This document shows positions 8,346-32,095 of a stretch of DNA of 64,000 bases, in pieces. The position numbers were made by a program, and so were the translations under genes. This DNA comes from Paracoccaceae bacterium (GTDB lineage Bacteria > Pseudomonadota > Alphaproteobacteria > Rhodobacterales > Rhodobacteraceae), in the NCBI GenBank assembly GCA_014879735.1, contig JACSRN010000132.1:17102-81101 (forward strand), given 5' to 3'. The stretch's first letter is position 1. Each line of letters begins with the position of its first letter. The notes beneath the pieces are model-generated. The model searched no databases, was not told the origin of the DNA, and saw only the letters and a program-made list of their open reading frames with translations.

Positions 8346-9371
8346 ATGGCGAACGCCCCCCGCGATGCGACACGAATCCTGAGAGCCCGCGACGTGGCGG
8401 ATCTTCTGGGCGTGTCCACCTCGATGATCTCGCGGGCGTTCAACCCGCAAGCCAGCATCTCGCCTGCGATGCGCAAACGGATCATGGAGGCGGCAGAGGC
8501 GCTGGGCTACCGGCCGAATGTCATTGCCAGCAGCCTGTCGACCCGACGCAGCAAGATCGTCGCAGTGATCCTCGGCACCCTGGAGAACCCGTTCTACGCC
8601 CAGGTTCTGGAAAGGCTGAGCCGCGAACTGCAGGGCGCCGGCTACCAGTCTCTGCTGTTCAACCTTGCCCCGGGGCAGGATGTCGACAGCCAGTTGCCCT
8701 ATCTGCTGCAGTATAATGTCGACGCGGTCATCATCGTTTCCGCCAGCATCTCGTCGGGTATCGCGAACGACTGGACGAACAGCGGCCGCAAGGTGATCCT
8801 GTTCAACCGCACCCTGCCGAACATGCCGGTGCCCAGCGTCTGCTGCGACAACCAGCAGGGCGCGCGGCTGGCGGTGGATCATTTCGTCGCAACGGGGCGC
8901 GAACGGCTGGCGTTTGCCGCGGGGCGGCGCGACACCTCGACCAATGCCGAGCGCGAACTCGGTTTTCTCGCCCGGCTGGCCGAAGTCGGGACAAAGCTGG
9001 CCGCCAAGGTCGACAATCCGCACTGCTCGTTTCGCGACGGATACAATGCCGCGCTCAAGCTTGCACCCGCACAACCCGATGCGATCTTCTTTGCCAATGA
9101 CGTGATGGCGCTGGGCGGGGTCGAGGCAATCGAGAAGGAACTGAAGCTGCGAGTGCCCGAGGATATCGCGGTGATCGGTTTCGACGATATTCCGATGGCC
9201 GCATGGCCCACCTATTCCCTGACGACGATCCACCCGCCCCTGGACGAGATGGTTGCGAGCGCGGTGAAGCTGCTGTCGGTGCCAGAGGGGAGCACCGAGG
9301 ATACCCGCATCATCCACCCCGTCACGCTGGTCGTCCGCGACTCGACCCAGCCACGCGAAATCACCGGGTGA
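8346..9371 (+). CDS. LacI-family transcriptional repressor (regulator 1)
   Basis: A 341-residue LacI/GalR-type repressor. The N-terminal helix-turn-helix and hinge are 'ARDVADLLGVSTSMISRAF' followed by 'EAAEALGYRPN', then a type I periplasmic-binding-like effector domain ('AVILGTLENPFYAQVLERL', 'FDDIPMAAWPTYSLTTI'). The ORF track extends upstream; the ATG at 8346 places the helix-turn-helix about 12 residues in, as in the family. It is divergent from the crotonase gene. It is the best candidate to bind the two TTGCA-n6-TGCAA operators on this island; the effector is probably a catabolite of the imported compound (inference). Confidence 0.92.
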   Translation: MANAPRDATRILRARDVADLLGVSTSMISRAFNPQASISPAMRKRIMEAAEALGYRPNVIASSLSTRRSKIVAVILGTLENPFYAQVLERLSRELQGAGYQSLLFNLAPGQDVDSQLPYLLQYNVDAVIIVSASISSGIANDWTNSGRKVILFNRTLPNMPVPSVCCDNQQGARLAVDHFVATGRERLAFAAGRRDTSTNAERELGFLARLAEVGTKLAAKVDNPHCSFRDGYNAALKLAPAQPDAIFFANDVMALGGVEAIEKELKLRVPEDIAVIGFDDIPMAAWPTYSLTTIHPPLDEMVASAVKLLSVPEGSTEDTRIIHPVTLVVRDSTQPREITG

Positions 9372-27795: not shown

Positions 27796-28452
27796 ATGCA
27801 GCGCCGAGTCTTCCTCGCCGGTCTCTCGCTTCCCCTTGCGCCATGGTCGGCGGCGGCGACGGGAGGGGATTCGGTCGTGGTCGCCATCGAAGGCGGGGGC
27901 GAGGCGCAGATTTCCGGCGGCGATAGCGTTGCCCTGACGCCGGGTTTGCGGCTGCCGCCCGGAAGCCGGATCGTCACCGGACCGGGCGCGCGGGCCGAAC
28001 TGGCGCTGGCCAGCGGTGGAAGCCTGCATGCCGGAAGCGAAACTTCCGTCGGGCTTGCCAGCGGCAGCGGGAACGAAAGCCTGAATATCTCGGGTGTCGC
28101 AGTGATCGACCGCCGCGGGACGCCCGGCGAGGTCACGGTCGATATTGCAAGCTTCGAGGTCCTGCTCGCCGATGCGCGGGTGTTTATCGACAGCGTCCAG
28201 GGCGGTTCGGTCTTCGTCAAGGACGGCACGGCCGAGGTCGTGCTGCCTGACACCCGCCTTGCCCTGCTCGAGGGCCAGGGCGTCGACCTGCCCGGTCGGG
28301 CCGAACCCACAGGCGGCGGTCTGCCGCCCGTCACCGGAACGCGGCCGGCACCGAGCCCACCCTTGCCCGGTGCGGATGCGCCACTTCTGCCGCAGGTCTG
28401 GGGCGAGCGCCGGATCGAGGCCGCTTTCGCCAGCGTCGGCCTGATCGCCTGA
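27796..28452 (+). CDS. Exported FecR-like protein 1
   Basis: A 218-residue protein with an N-terminal signal ('[19 protein letters not shown]') and a beta-rich FecR-like domain: '[29 protein letters not shown]' resembles the start of FecR periplasmic domains, where glycine/alanine turns alternate with short strands. The C-terminal part is proline-rich. There is no transmembrane helix after the signal and no cytoplasmic anti-sigma region, so it is probably a free periplasmic or surface protein. No Shine-Dalgarno precedes the ATG. It is the first gene of the FecR-FecR-CRP-CHASE2 cluster and shares the C-terminal 'RIxxAFAxVGL' ending with the second FecR protein. Confidence 0.75.
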
Positions 28453-28536
28453 TCGGTCCGGGGCGGCCTTGCCCGACTAGGCAGATCCGGGTGCGGCTGC
28501 TAGGCTGCGGCAATTGCCCTGTTCCGCGAGGCTGCC

Positions 28537-29151
28537 ATGATCCGACTGACCCGCCGCCATACCCTTCTGGGCGCCGGCCTTCTGCCGTTCTTACCCGGCC
28601 CGGTGCTGGCCAATACGCCGATCGGGACGGCGGCCGAGGTGACGGGCGACGCCTCGCTGACGCATGAGGGCGCCGTCGCGGCGATGGCGCCCGGCGCGGC
28701 GCTGGCCGAGGGCGATCTTGCCGAAACCGGCACCGACGGGCTGGCGCTGCTCATCCTCGAAACCGACACCAGGCTAAACATGGGGCCGGTTACATCGGTC
28801 GTGCTGGCAAAATACCTGGCGGATGTGGGCGGCACGATCACCCTCGGCGGCGCCGACGGCGGGGCGCTGGTCTTCGACCGGCCCGAGGACCTGCCGCCGA
28901 TCGACCTGACCTTCGACACCGCCTTCGGTCAGATCGGCGTGCGCGGCACCCGGTTCTTCGCCGGGCCAAGCCGCGGCACCTTTGCCGTCTTCTGCCAGCG
29001 CGGCCGGGTGACGGTGGTCAATGCCGGAACCACGCGCGACCTTGGCCCCGGCGACGGGGTGAACCTGTCGGACGGCGCGCCGTCTGAGGTGGCGCAGTGG
29101 AAGCCCGAACGCATCGCCGAGGCTTTTGCCCTGGTCGGCCTGGCGCCCTGA
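28537..29151 (+). CDS. Exported FecR-domain protein 2
   Basis: A 204-residue protein. A twin-arginine-like signal ('RLTRRHTLLGAGLLP' with cleavage near 'PVLA') is followed by a FecR domain: 'GDLAETGTDGLALLILETDTRLNMGP' and 'TAFGQIGVRGTRFFAGPSRGTFAVFCQRG' are characteristic. GCGAGG stands six bases before the ATG. Like its neighbour it lacks the cytoplasmic anti-sigma half of true FecR. It ends 'RIAEAFALVGLAP', close to the end of FecR-like protein 1, so the two are probably diverged duplicates. Its position directly before CRP-like and CHASE2 cyclase genes suggests a periplasmic partner of the CHASE2 sensor (inference). Confidence 0.82.
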   Translation: MIRLTRRHTLLGAGLLPFLPGPVLANTPIGTAAEVTGDASLTHEGAVAAMAPGAALAEGDLAETGTDGLALLILETDTRLNMGPVTSVVLAKYLADVGGTITLGGADGGALVFDRPEDLPPIDLTFDTAFGQIGVRGTRFFAGPSRGTFAVFCQRGRVTVVNAGTTRDLGPGDGVNLSDGAPSEVAQWKPERIAEAFALVGLAP

Positions 29152-29211
29152 CCCCTTGCCGAGGCGGGCCGCTTGCGCGCAGCATGGCGGTGAATATGTG
29201 CGGGAGGCAGC

Positions 29212-29901
29212 ATGGCCGGACGTGGGTTCTGGAAATCGTTCCGCATGTTCGCGCCACTCGCACCCGAGGCGCTGGACGCGGTCGAGGCGGTGGCCCGGAC
29301 CCGGATCTGGGCGCCGGGCGAGCTGATCTTCCAGCGCGGAGACGATGGCGACTGGCTGGTCGCACTGGCCAAGGGCCGGGTGAAGATCTCGCTTCTGTCC
29401 GCGGCCGGGAAGGAACTGGTGCTACGGCAGGCCGAGGCGGGCGAAATGCTCGGGGAACTGGCGCTGTTCGATGCCCGTCCCCGCTCGGCCGACGCGACGG
29501 CCGTGACACCCGTCCAGGGCCGGGTGCTGACCCGAGGCGCCTTTCGCGCTGTCGCCGCGCAGCATCCGTCGCTGAGCGAAGCCGCATTGGCGCATCTGAG
29601 CGCGATGCTGCGCGACACCACGGCCCAGCTCGAATCCATCGCGCTCTACCAGTTGCGGGCCCGTGTGGCGCGGTTCTTCCTCTACGCCCTGACACAGCTG
29701 AACGGCGACGACATTCCCGACGAGGCGCGGCTGGCACCGGGGTTGAACCAGGGTGAACTGGCCGCACTTCTGGGTGCCAGCCGGCCGAAGGTGAACCGCG
29801 TGCTGCAGGATTTCCGCGACGAGGGTGTCCTGACCGATGCCGGCGGTATTTGGCTCTGCAACCTGGCGCTGTTGCGGGCCGAGGCCGCGGCGGATGACTA
29901 G
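29212..29901 (+). CDS. CRP/FNR-family transcriptional regulator with intact cAMP pocket
   Basis: A 229-residue regulator: cyclic-nucleotide-binding domain (residues about 10-130), dimerisation helix, and C-terminal helix-turn-helix ('LNQGELAALLGASRPKVNRVLQDF'). By alignment to E. coli CRP by eye, the cAMP contacts are kept: Glu82 in 'GELALF', Arg91-Ser92 in 'RPRSADA', and Thr136-Thr137 at the position of Thr127-Ser128. There are no FNR-type N-terminal cysteines. It therefore probably responds to a cyclic nucleotide, and its stop overlaps the start of a CHASE2 cyclase by eight bases. Target promoters are unknown. Confidence 0.9.
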   Translation: MAGRGFWKSFRMFAPLAPEALDAVEAVARTRIWAPGELIFQRGDDGDWLVALAKGRVKISLLSAAGKELVLRQAEAGEMLGELALFDARPRSADATAVTPVQGRVLTRGAFRAVAAQHPSLSEAALAHLSAMLRDTTAQLESIALYQLRARVARFFLYALTQLNGDDIPDEARLAPGLNQGELAALLGASRPKVNRVLQDFRDEGVLTDAGGIWLCNLALLRAEAAADD

Positions 29902-31720
29902 CCTGGGCCCCAGGCTGCGACGCGCACAGGCGGCAATCGTCTCGGCGGCGCTGTCGCTGGCCCTTGCTGCGGGTCTGGCGCTGTCGCCGGACGGGCTGCG
30001 CAACGCACGGGAACGCGCGCTGGATGTGATGATCCGGCTTTCGCCCGCGCCGGCGCCCACCAGCCCTGCAGTCGTGATTGTCGACATCGGCGCAGCGGAC
30101 GAGGCTGGCCGGCCGTGGAACCGGGTCGCCTCGGGGCGCCTTGCCGCGGCGCTGGCCGCTGCTGCACCCGCCGCCATGGCATGGGACATCGTCTTTGCCG
30201 GGGATTGCGCTGCCGGCACCGGCAAGGACCTTGCCGCCGGTCTGGCAGCGGCGCCGGCCGTCCTTGGCATGCTGCTCTCCGCCCTGCCCACGCCGGCACC
30301 CCGGCCTTTGCCGGTCTTCGGCACCGCCGAGGGCGCGGGCGCCGGCCTCTGGTCCGCGCCGGGGCTGGAGGCCCCCTGCCCCGCCTTCACCGCGGACGGC
30401 GCCACGCTGGGGTCGATCTCGCTGCCCGGCGACAGTACGGCGCGGGTGCGGATGGTGCCGGCCGCGGTCGCAGCCGCCGGCGAGATCTGGCCCGCGTTGC
30501 CGGTCGAACTTCTTCGCAGGGGCGGGGCGGCACCGCTGCCGGTTCTGGATGCTGCCCCGGCATTGCACCTGGGCCGCGCGATCTTTCCGCTGGATCCCGG
30601 CGCCATGCTGCGCTTTCGCCCCTCAAGCCGCGAGGAACGGCTGGCGCGCACCGTTCCGGCCGAAGCGGTTTTGCAGGGTCTGGTCGCGCAGGACCGTTTT
30701 CGGGATGCGCTGGTCCTGGTCGGCTCGTCCCTGCCCCAGCGCGGCGGGCTGCGGCCCACCGCGGCCGATCCGCTCTATCCTTCCGTCCAGATCGCCGCCG
30801 ACGTGGCCGTTGGGCTGCTGGCGGATCGCCTGCCCTGGCGGCCCGCAGGCGCCGCTTGGGTCGAGGCGAGCAGTCTGGCACTGGCCGGCCTTGTGCTGGC
30901 GCTGGCGCTGATGCACCTGCCACCCCTTGCCACGGCGGGGCTGGCGCTGGTGGCCGGCGGGCTGTGGGCGGCGGGGGCGGTTGCGATACATCTGCTGACC
31001 GGGCGGCTTTACGACCCGCTGTTTCCCGCCCTTGGCCTGGTCATGCCAGTGCTGGCGGGGCTGATCCTGCGGGCCGCCGCCCATGCGCGCGCCGAACGCG
31101 CCCTGCGCCGGCGGATGGGCCAACTGCTGCCCGGCGCCGTGGTCGCCCGGCTGGCCGACGACCCCCACCTTCTGCGCCTTGCCGGCGAACGGCGCGAGAT
31201 CACCGCGCTGTTCACCGACATCGAAGGCTTTTCGGCGATGGCAAACCGGCTGCCGCCCGAGATCCTGATCGCCACGCTGGACCGCTATTTCGCCACCGTC
31301 ACCACCATCGTGCTGCGCCATGGCGGGATGGTCGACAAGATTGTCGGCGATGGCTTGCATGCATTGTTCAACGCGCCGCTCGACCAGCCCGGCCATGTCG
31401 ACGCCGCCCTCGCCGCCGCAGGCGAGATCGTGCGGGAGACCGAGGTCCTGCGTCCGGTGCTCGGCCTTGGCCGCACCCGCATCGGGGTGGAAACCGGGCC
31501 GGTGATTCTGGGTGACGTGGGCGGCGGCGCGCGCATCGACTATACTGCGCACGGGCCGGCGGTGAACCTGGCCGCGCGGCTGCAGGAGATGGGCAAGACC
31601 CTCGGCCCCGCAGTGATCGTCGGTCCCGCGGCCGCAACTCGCGCCACGCTGCCTCTGCGCCCGCTGCAGACCATCGAGATCCGCAGCTTTGGCCCTCTGC
31701 CGCTTTTCACCCTCGGCTGA
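29894..31720 (+). CDS. CHASE2-domain membrane adenylate/guanylate cyclase
   Basis: A 608-residue sensor cyclase. One transmembrane helix (residues about 12-30), a periplasmic CHASE2 domain (about 35-300), a block of three helices (about 320-400) and a class III cyclase catalytic domain at the C-terminus. Both metal aspartates ('FTDIEGFSAM', 'KIVGDGLHALF') and the transition-state Asn/Arg ('VNLAARL') are present; Thr in 'DYTAHG' occupies the base-recognition position usual in bacterial adenylate cyclases. The ORF track start is 19 codons too early; ATG at 29894 overlaps the crp-like gene by eight bases. It would convert a periplasmic signal into cyclic nucleotide for the adjacent regulator. 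Confidence 0.9.
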   Translation: MTSLGPRLRRAQAAIVSAALSLALAAGLALSPDGLRNARERALDVMIRLSPAPAPTSPAVVIVDIGAADEAGRPWNRVASGRLAAALAAAAPAAMAWDIVFAGDCAAGTGKDLAAGLAAAPAVLGMLLSALPTPAPRPLPVFGTAEGAGAGLWSAPGLEAPCPAFTADGATLGSISLPGDSTARVRMVPAAVAAAGEIWPALPVELLRRGGAAPLPVLDAAPALHLGRAIFPLDPGAMLRFRPSSREERLARTVPAEAVLQGLVAQDRFRDALVLVGSSLPQRGGLRPTAADPLYPSVQIAADVAVGLLADRLPWRPAGAAWVEASSLALAGLVLALALMHLPPLATAGLALVAGGLWAAGAVAIHLLTGRLYDPLFPALGLVMPVLAGLILRAAAHARAERALRRRMGQLLPGAVVARLADDPHLLRLAGERREITALFTDIEGFSAMANRLPPEILIATLDRYFATVTTIVLRHGGMVDKIVGDGLHALFNAPLDQPGHVDAALAAAGEIVRETEVLRPVLGLGRTRIGVETGPVILGDVGGGARIDYTAHGPAVNLAARLQEMGKTLGPAVIVGPAAATRATLPLRPLQTIEIRSFGPLPLFTLG

Positions 31721-31819
31721 GCCTGTTCCCCGGGAAACAGCGCGCATCGCGCCATCGGCCTAATCTTGGACCATCAAGACCGGCGGGTAGGCCCCGGTCA
31801 CAATCCAAGGAGAAACCCG

Positions 31820-32095
31820 ATGTTCCGCAAGTTCCTGACCGCCGCCCTGATCGTTGCCGCCCTGCCCGCCGCCGCCCTTGCCGGCAATGGCTGGACCACC
31901 GGCGGCGTCAAGTTCCGCAGTGGCCCCGGCACCCAGTACAATGCGATTGCCACCCTGCCGAAATGCGCCGCCGTCACCACCTATGGCAGCAAAGGCGGCT
32001 GGGTCGAGATTGCATGGCAGGGCCAGCGCGGCTGGATCTCGGCGAAATACCTCGCCCATTCGAACGCCCATTGCGCCTACGGCTACGATTACTGA
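31820..32095 (+). CDS. Small secreted bacterial SH3-domain protein
   Basis: A 91-residue exported protein: signal peptide (cleavage near 'AAALAG') followed by one SH3b domain ('VKFRSGPGTQYNAIATLPKC' to 'GWISAKYL'). The domain binds peptidoglycan or protein partners in the periplasm. The two cysteines (in 'LPKCAAV' and 'AHCAYG') could form a disulfide. AAGGAGA at seven bases fixes the ATG at 31820. A monocistronic accessory gene by its flanks. Confidence 0.85.
   Translation: MFRKFLTAALIVAALPAAALAGNGWTTGGVKFRSGPGTQYNAIATLPKCAAVTTYGSKGGWVEIAWQGQRGWISAKYLAHSNAHCAYGYDY

Follow-up and report, generated by a model that had tools for sequence, protein, structure and literature searches.

Organization of the locus

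The 64-kb stretch of DNA that we analysed (the window) carries four genes in the same orientation, followed by a predicted promoter and a gene for a small exported protein:

27796-28452, plus strand: fecR1, 218 aa, exported FecR-like protein, a diverged paralogue
28537-29151, plus strand: fecR2, 204 aa, exported stand-alone FecR domain protein, SMc02177 orthologue
29212-29901, plus strand: Clr-type CRP/FNR regulator (predicted cAMP receptor), 229 aa
29894-31720, plus strand: predicted CHASE2 membrane class III adenylate cyclase, CyaD1-like, 608 aa
31724-31739, no strand assigned: predicted Clr box, TGTTCCCCGGGAAACA, a match to the consensus
31761-31766, plus strand: predicted -10 hexamer TAATCT, 21 nt 3' of the Clr box
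31820-32095, plus strand: small exported bacterial SH3 protein (SH3_3, 46.5 bits), predicted direct Clr target

An initial annotation had described the first four open reading frames as a self-contained cyclic-nucleotide signalling unit, and all four are present at the positions it gave, with the regulator and cyclase genes sharing the 8-bp overlap that it reported (ATGACTAG, 29894-29901). It had overlooked the Clr box at 31724-31739, the SH3 target gene and the existence of a counterpart in Sinorhizobium meliloti.

The regulator and the cyclase

The regulator combines a cNMP_binding domain (63.9 bits) with an HTH_Crp_2 domain (51.4 bits) in Pfam, and its best relative of solved structure is S. 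meliloti Clr, a Crp/Fnr cluster G receptor for cAMP and cGMP (7pza, 217 bits; the runner-up scores 89) (PMC10127613). The five cAMP-contact positions named in the initial annotation (Glu82, Arg91, Ser92, Thr136 and Thr137) are conserved and equal E86, R95, S96, T140 and T141 of Clr, so that the protein carries the Glu, Arg-Ser, Thr-Thr pocket of Clr. It is likewise identical to Clr at seven of seven DNA-reading residues (L152, Q184, S194, R195, K197, N199 and R200).

The cyclase consists, as first proposed, of a CHASE2 domain (89.5 bits) and a class III catalytic domain (Guanylate_cyc, 45.7 bits) with its catalytic residues kept: D442, D486, T551 and R562 are invariant in our comparison, and K482 and N558 are also present. 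As usual for class III cyclases, we take D442 and D486 to be the metal aspartates, K482 and T551 to specify adenine, and N558 and R562 to serve the transition state. In the source genome (98.9% complete, 201 contigs), the class III cyclase family and CHASE2 each have a single match. Three of the genome's proteins have a cNMP fold, and the window regulator alone has a full cAMP pocket; the other two are an FNR-like protein with a cysteine cluster and a DNR-like protein without the Arg-Ser/Thr-Thr pocket. With no second class III cyclase and no other full cAMP pocket found in this genome, the two proteins form the dedicated pair that had been suggested. The cyclase would produce cAMP and the regulator would be activated by it; the identity of the second messenger is not certain, because Clr also accepts cGMP.

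A predicted Clr-dependent promoter

The Clr consensus HGTYHCNNNNGRWACA occurs at a single site in the 64-kb window, a count that 0 of 100 shuffles reach. This site (31724-31739) lies just 3' of the cyclase stop codon; aligned with the box of S. meliloti smc02178, it has one mismatch in 16 bases. A perfect box follows the cyclase at the equivalent place in Rhodobacter sp. Har01 and in a Fuscovulum MAG, and Clr boxes stand upstream of crp in Gemmobacter fulvus and genomes G034, G078 and G133, and before fecR in G399, which belongs to another family. Upstream of fecR1 and fecR2 in the window, no Clr box was found.

The window box ends exactly 21 nt before the hexamer TAATCT, which would centre it at the class II position, near -41.5. 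Most published Clr boxes lie at -42 to -76. The gene behind this predicted promoter encodes the exported SH3 protein of 91 aa, whose Har01 homologue is 68% identical and has a box of its own. The N21 spacing between box and hexamer is seen again at a second promoter of the source genome, in Har01, and before smc02178 of S. meliloti and fecR of G399. A TAnnnT hexamer stands at exactly N21 in 5 of 11 boxes examined, against about 0.04 expected from hexamer frequency.

We searched 20 genomes for the box-N21-TAnnnT pattern, with the reversed pattern as a control. Three members of the genus with the regulator gave five matches, every one 5' of a gene for a protein with a signal-like N-terminus, and none for the control; eleven members without the regulator gave two matches, both apparently within coding frames, and three for the control. 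The second promoter of the source genome lies on contig C118, before the gene for a 136-aa exported acidic protein. That the predicted targets are exported agrees with the S. meliloti Clr regulon, in which small exported proteins abound. Genome-wide, a relaxed Clr consensus matched 18 times, mostly inside genes, against 41 times for its reversed control; given this lack of enrichment, the regulon must be small. The local readout envisaged in the initial annotation is supported by the box beside the cluster but is incomplete, and the term self-contained was too strong, since the second predicted target sits on another contig.

Several boxes outside the window are worth recording. In the Fuscovulum MAG (L032, 10500-10663), the box after the cyclase is kept, the SH3 gene is undetectable and there is no -10 hexamer at N21, so that the box resembles a remnant left by the loss of its target. 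In G. fulvus (L079, 4244-6285), crp and a gene encoding a calcium-binding protein of the RTX type diverge from either side of a Clr box, and a likely RTX-type gene is placed in the same way in G034 (L040, around 8475-8575), suggesting that a secreted RTX-type protein is a Clr target there. G253, which belongs to another family and has the FecR and CHASE2 cyclase genes, contains two adjacent genes for exported proteins of TPR-like type, each behind a box-N21-TAnnnT promoter (contig C9, 1042402-1043144; L147, L150). Two perfect palindromes on contig C89 were rejected as Clr boxes because their sequence, TGTTTCACGTGAAACA, is that of parS, which we take to be the chromosomal site; these copies (G000, 15732-15747 in L012 and 21086-21101 in L013) lie beside rph/rdgB-like and gidA-like genes and fit the Clr consensus by coincidence.

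The FecR proteins

Pfam scores for the FecR domain are weak (13.9 bits for FecR1 and 23.8 bits for FecR2, with a cut-off of 24), and close relatives of FecR2 exceed the cut-off. The AlphaFold model of FecR2 (pLDDT 84.6) matches the C-terminal cell-surface signalling domain of PupR in a fold search (6ovk_R, E 7e-6, TM about 0.5); a search of PDB sequences with the FecR profile retrieved no FecR structure, and the fold search alone gave one. Despite its weak Pfam score, FecR2 is, on the evidence of these relatives and of the model, a true FecR domain, and we consider the assignment firm because orthology and fold match concur. FecR2 further has both attributes of an SMc02177-type protein, sequence orthology and linkage to clr and cyaD1. 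FecR1, which is 28% identical to FecR2 and 30% identical to the SMc02177 orthologue and has lost the RGTxFFAGPSRG motif, is by sequence a diverged paralogue of FecR2. It has a homologue in Har01 (39% identity), and no fecR1 was detected in any other relative that we examined.

Both proteins begin with a twin-arginine-like signal sequence, as read from the sequence (MQRRVFLAG at the start of FecR1), and together they are the sole genome matches to the FecR subfamily profile. Each consists of the signal sequence and the FecR-like domain alone, in keeping with the earlier observation that neither has an anti-sigma half. They differ in this respect from the anti-sigma FecR of the FecIRA system, which has a cytoplasmic anti-sigma half and a transmembrane helix and is accompanied by an adjacent sigma factor and TonB receptor; no sigma factor was found among the adjacent genes examined.

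Distribution and genomic site

Of 199 genomes in the family, 8 have relatives of the regulator, and 3 of 14 genus members have the cyclase; the class-wide CRP search, in which 7 candidates were scored per genome, was insensitive. The gene order, whose conservation the initial annotation had proposed to look for, extends beyond the source genome: Har01, the Fuscovulum MAG, G167 and G399 all have fecR2-crp-cyc, and the cyclase and regulator stay together across several families. The FecR gene of G034 is convergent, as in S. meliloti, and fecR1 and the SH3 gene are common to the source genome and Har01 only. Eleven genus members lack the cluster, and in every one of them argH-tlpA directly adjoins xth; these are the neighbours that flank the cluster here. 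The cluster is therefore a cassette that is present or absent at one site (3 occupied and 11 empty among 14 genus members), since the genomes with an empty site have its flanking neighbours joined.

Relation to the S. meliloti pathway

On sequence grounds, the cluster is the Clr-CyaD1-SMc02177 module already described in S. meliloti (PMC5498481), because its proteins are orthologous (47% identity for the regulator, 44% for the cyclase with CyaD1 and 42% for FecR2 with SMc02177), their genes are linked and the best structure match of the regulator is Clr itself. S. meliloti uses this circuit to sense its plant host, and the Clr pathway and box have been characterized there (PMC5498481, PMC10127613). 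Three tblastn searches of 72,556 plasmid records, with the regulator, FecR2 and the CHASE2 half of the cyclase as queries, returned six records apiece; Sinorhizobium (four records) and G. fulvus were common to all three sets. The S. meliloti gene order, on a 3.7-Mb record, is smc02178-like, FecR, cyaD1, clr. That record (CP090106.1, L078) is titled S. meliloti plasmid pSymB and is probably a mislabelled chromosome, as it bears chromosomal genes such as clr and cyaD1.

The likeness between the systems covers the orthologous regulator, cyclase and FecR protein, a near-identical box and an equal spacing of the target promoter. The arrangement differs, in that the S. meliloti FecR gene is convergent to cyaD1 whereas the window genes are co-directional and include two tandem FecR genes, and the neighbouring target is smc02178 in S. 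meliloti but the SH3 protein gene in the window. S. meliloti also has 28 class III cyclases and the receptor NsrA (PMC13001267, PMC7529298), whereas the source genome has one cyclase. The system is thus a tidy example of a known circuit in a Rhodobacter-like bacterium rather than a new one. The initial annotation described more than a chance grouping of genes and interpreted it correctly in outline, with the proposed FecR step as the tentative part. What is new is the example with a single cyclase, the tandem FecR duplication, the predicted SH3 target with its conserved promoter geometry, the site at which the cassette is present or absent and a quantified association of FecR with CHASE2.

Proposed mechanism and alternatives

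The locus very probably encodes a cassette of the Clr-CyaD1-SMc02177 kind that would pass an envelope cue from the CHASE2 cyclase through cAMP and the Clr-type regulator to class II promoters. An envelope or surface cue would be sensed by the periplasmic CHASE2 domain of the membrane cyclase, and the cAMP made by this enzyme would be bound by the neighbouring Clr-type regulator. The regulator would then recognise TGTTCC-N4-GGAACA boxes and activate class II promoters of small exported proteins, foremost that of the SH3 gene directly downstream. The FecR proteins would act in the periplasm, as adaptors on the CHASE2 input side or as outputs. The gene set, orthology, binding pocket, DNA-reading residues, box and promoter spacing behind this scheme can be read directly from the DNA and its translation.

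Two roles for the FecR proteins have about equal odds. They may constitute the signal input, binding CHASE2 in the periplasm and controlling the cyclase, as the initial annotation supposed; this possibility, which we put a little below an even chance, would fit the position of the fecR genes upstream of crp on the same strand, the absence of further matches to the subfamily profile in the genome and the cell-surface signalling fold predicted for FecR2. Communication between FecR and CHASE2 in general is supported because neighbours are in excess and NsrA, which is needed for CHASE2 cyclase signalling (PMC7529298), has an N-terminal FecR domain. In a class-wide set of 385 genomes, counting only those with a listed FecR match, 27 of 109 CHASE2 places among the matches listed have a FecR-profile match within 5 kb, against 0.65 expected if placement were random in 4-Mb genomes; such neighbours have been noted earlier (PMC9239204, PMC5192318). 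Against an input role for these particular proteins, the FecR2 orthologue SMc02177 is dispensable for plant-signal perception (PMC5498481). The same study found smc02177 to be a Clr target needed for the infection phenotype, which favours the other role, equally tentative, in which both proteins would be produced under Clr control as outputs or effectors and act at the cell envelope or surface. The class II-spaced box before fecR in G399 and the exported nature of the predicted targets in the source genome point the same way, and the lack of a box before either fecR gene in the window argues against it.

The palindrome after the cyclase might instead be a terminator or mRNA-stabilising hairpin, given that it is a perfect or near-perfect inverted repeat close behind the stop codon in three genomes. 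We reject this explanation as very improbable: no T run follows the palindrome, its letters fit the Clr consensus, it keeps a fixed spacing to a -10 hexamer and the motif also occurs upstream of crp or fecR in the five genomes named above. It is more improbable still that the regulator reads a ligand other than the cyclase product and that their adjacency is incidental, in view of the full cAMP pocket, the orthology to Clr and the pairing of cyclase and regulator across several families.

FecR domains and CHASE2 proteins in other systems

In S. meliloti, cyaK is immediately preceded by a gene that, from this position, we take to be nsrA; its product combines a FecR domain (66-160) and TPR repeats with a C-terminal part that resembles a barrel. 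Perception through CyaK and CyaD1/D2 depends on NsrA (PMC7529298). The nsrA-cyaK pair resembles the window in that a gene for a FecR domain protein stands beside a CHASE2 cyclase gene, but NsrA is a 1190-aa FecR-TPR-beta-barrel outer-membrane protein whereas each FecR protein of the window is an exported domain on its own. CHASE2 adenylate cyclases also accompany a FecR-domain protein in Campylobacterota clusters, which add a phosphodiesterase and a TPR protein and for which a Clr-type regulator has not been reported in the cluster (PMC9239204). The Burkholderia BiofilmReg operon places a FecR-domain protein beside a CHASE2 sensor (PMC5192318), there a histidine kinase with a response regulator rather than a cyclase with a CRP-type protein. 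FecR domains could conceivably be a general periplasmic partner of CHASE2, with the two stand-alone FecR proteins here replacing the FecR domain of NsrA and setting cyclase activity, though we lean towards doubting it.

The S. meliloti circuit is hard to dissect, with 28 cyclases feeding one regulator. Because there are here one cyclase, one receptor and very few predicted promoters, input, messenger and output could each be followed separately. The frequent proximity of FecR and CHASE2 genes across Alphaproteobacteria and the FecR domain of NsrA also make the question of what CHASE2 senses, and by way of which partner, directly testable. A further arrangement is seen in Ensifer sp. PDNC004 (L178, 2439-9079), where the neighbours of FecR, TPR and CHASE2 cyclase genes are an NHLP bacteriocin export system and a gene with a cNMP-binding domain.
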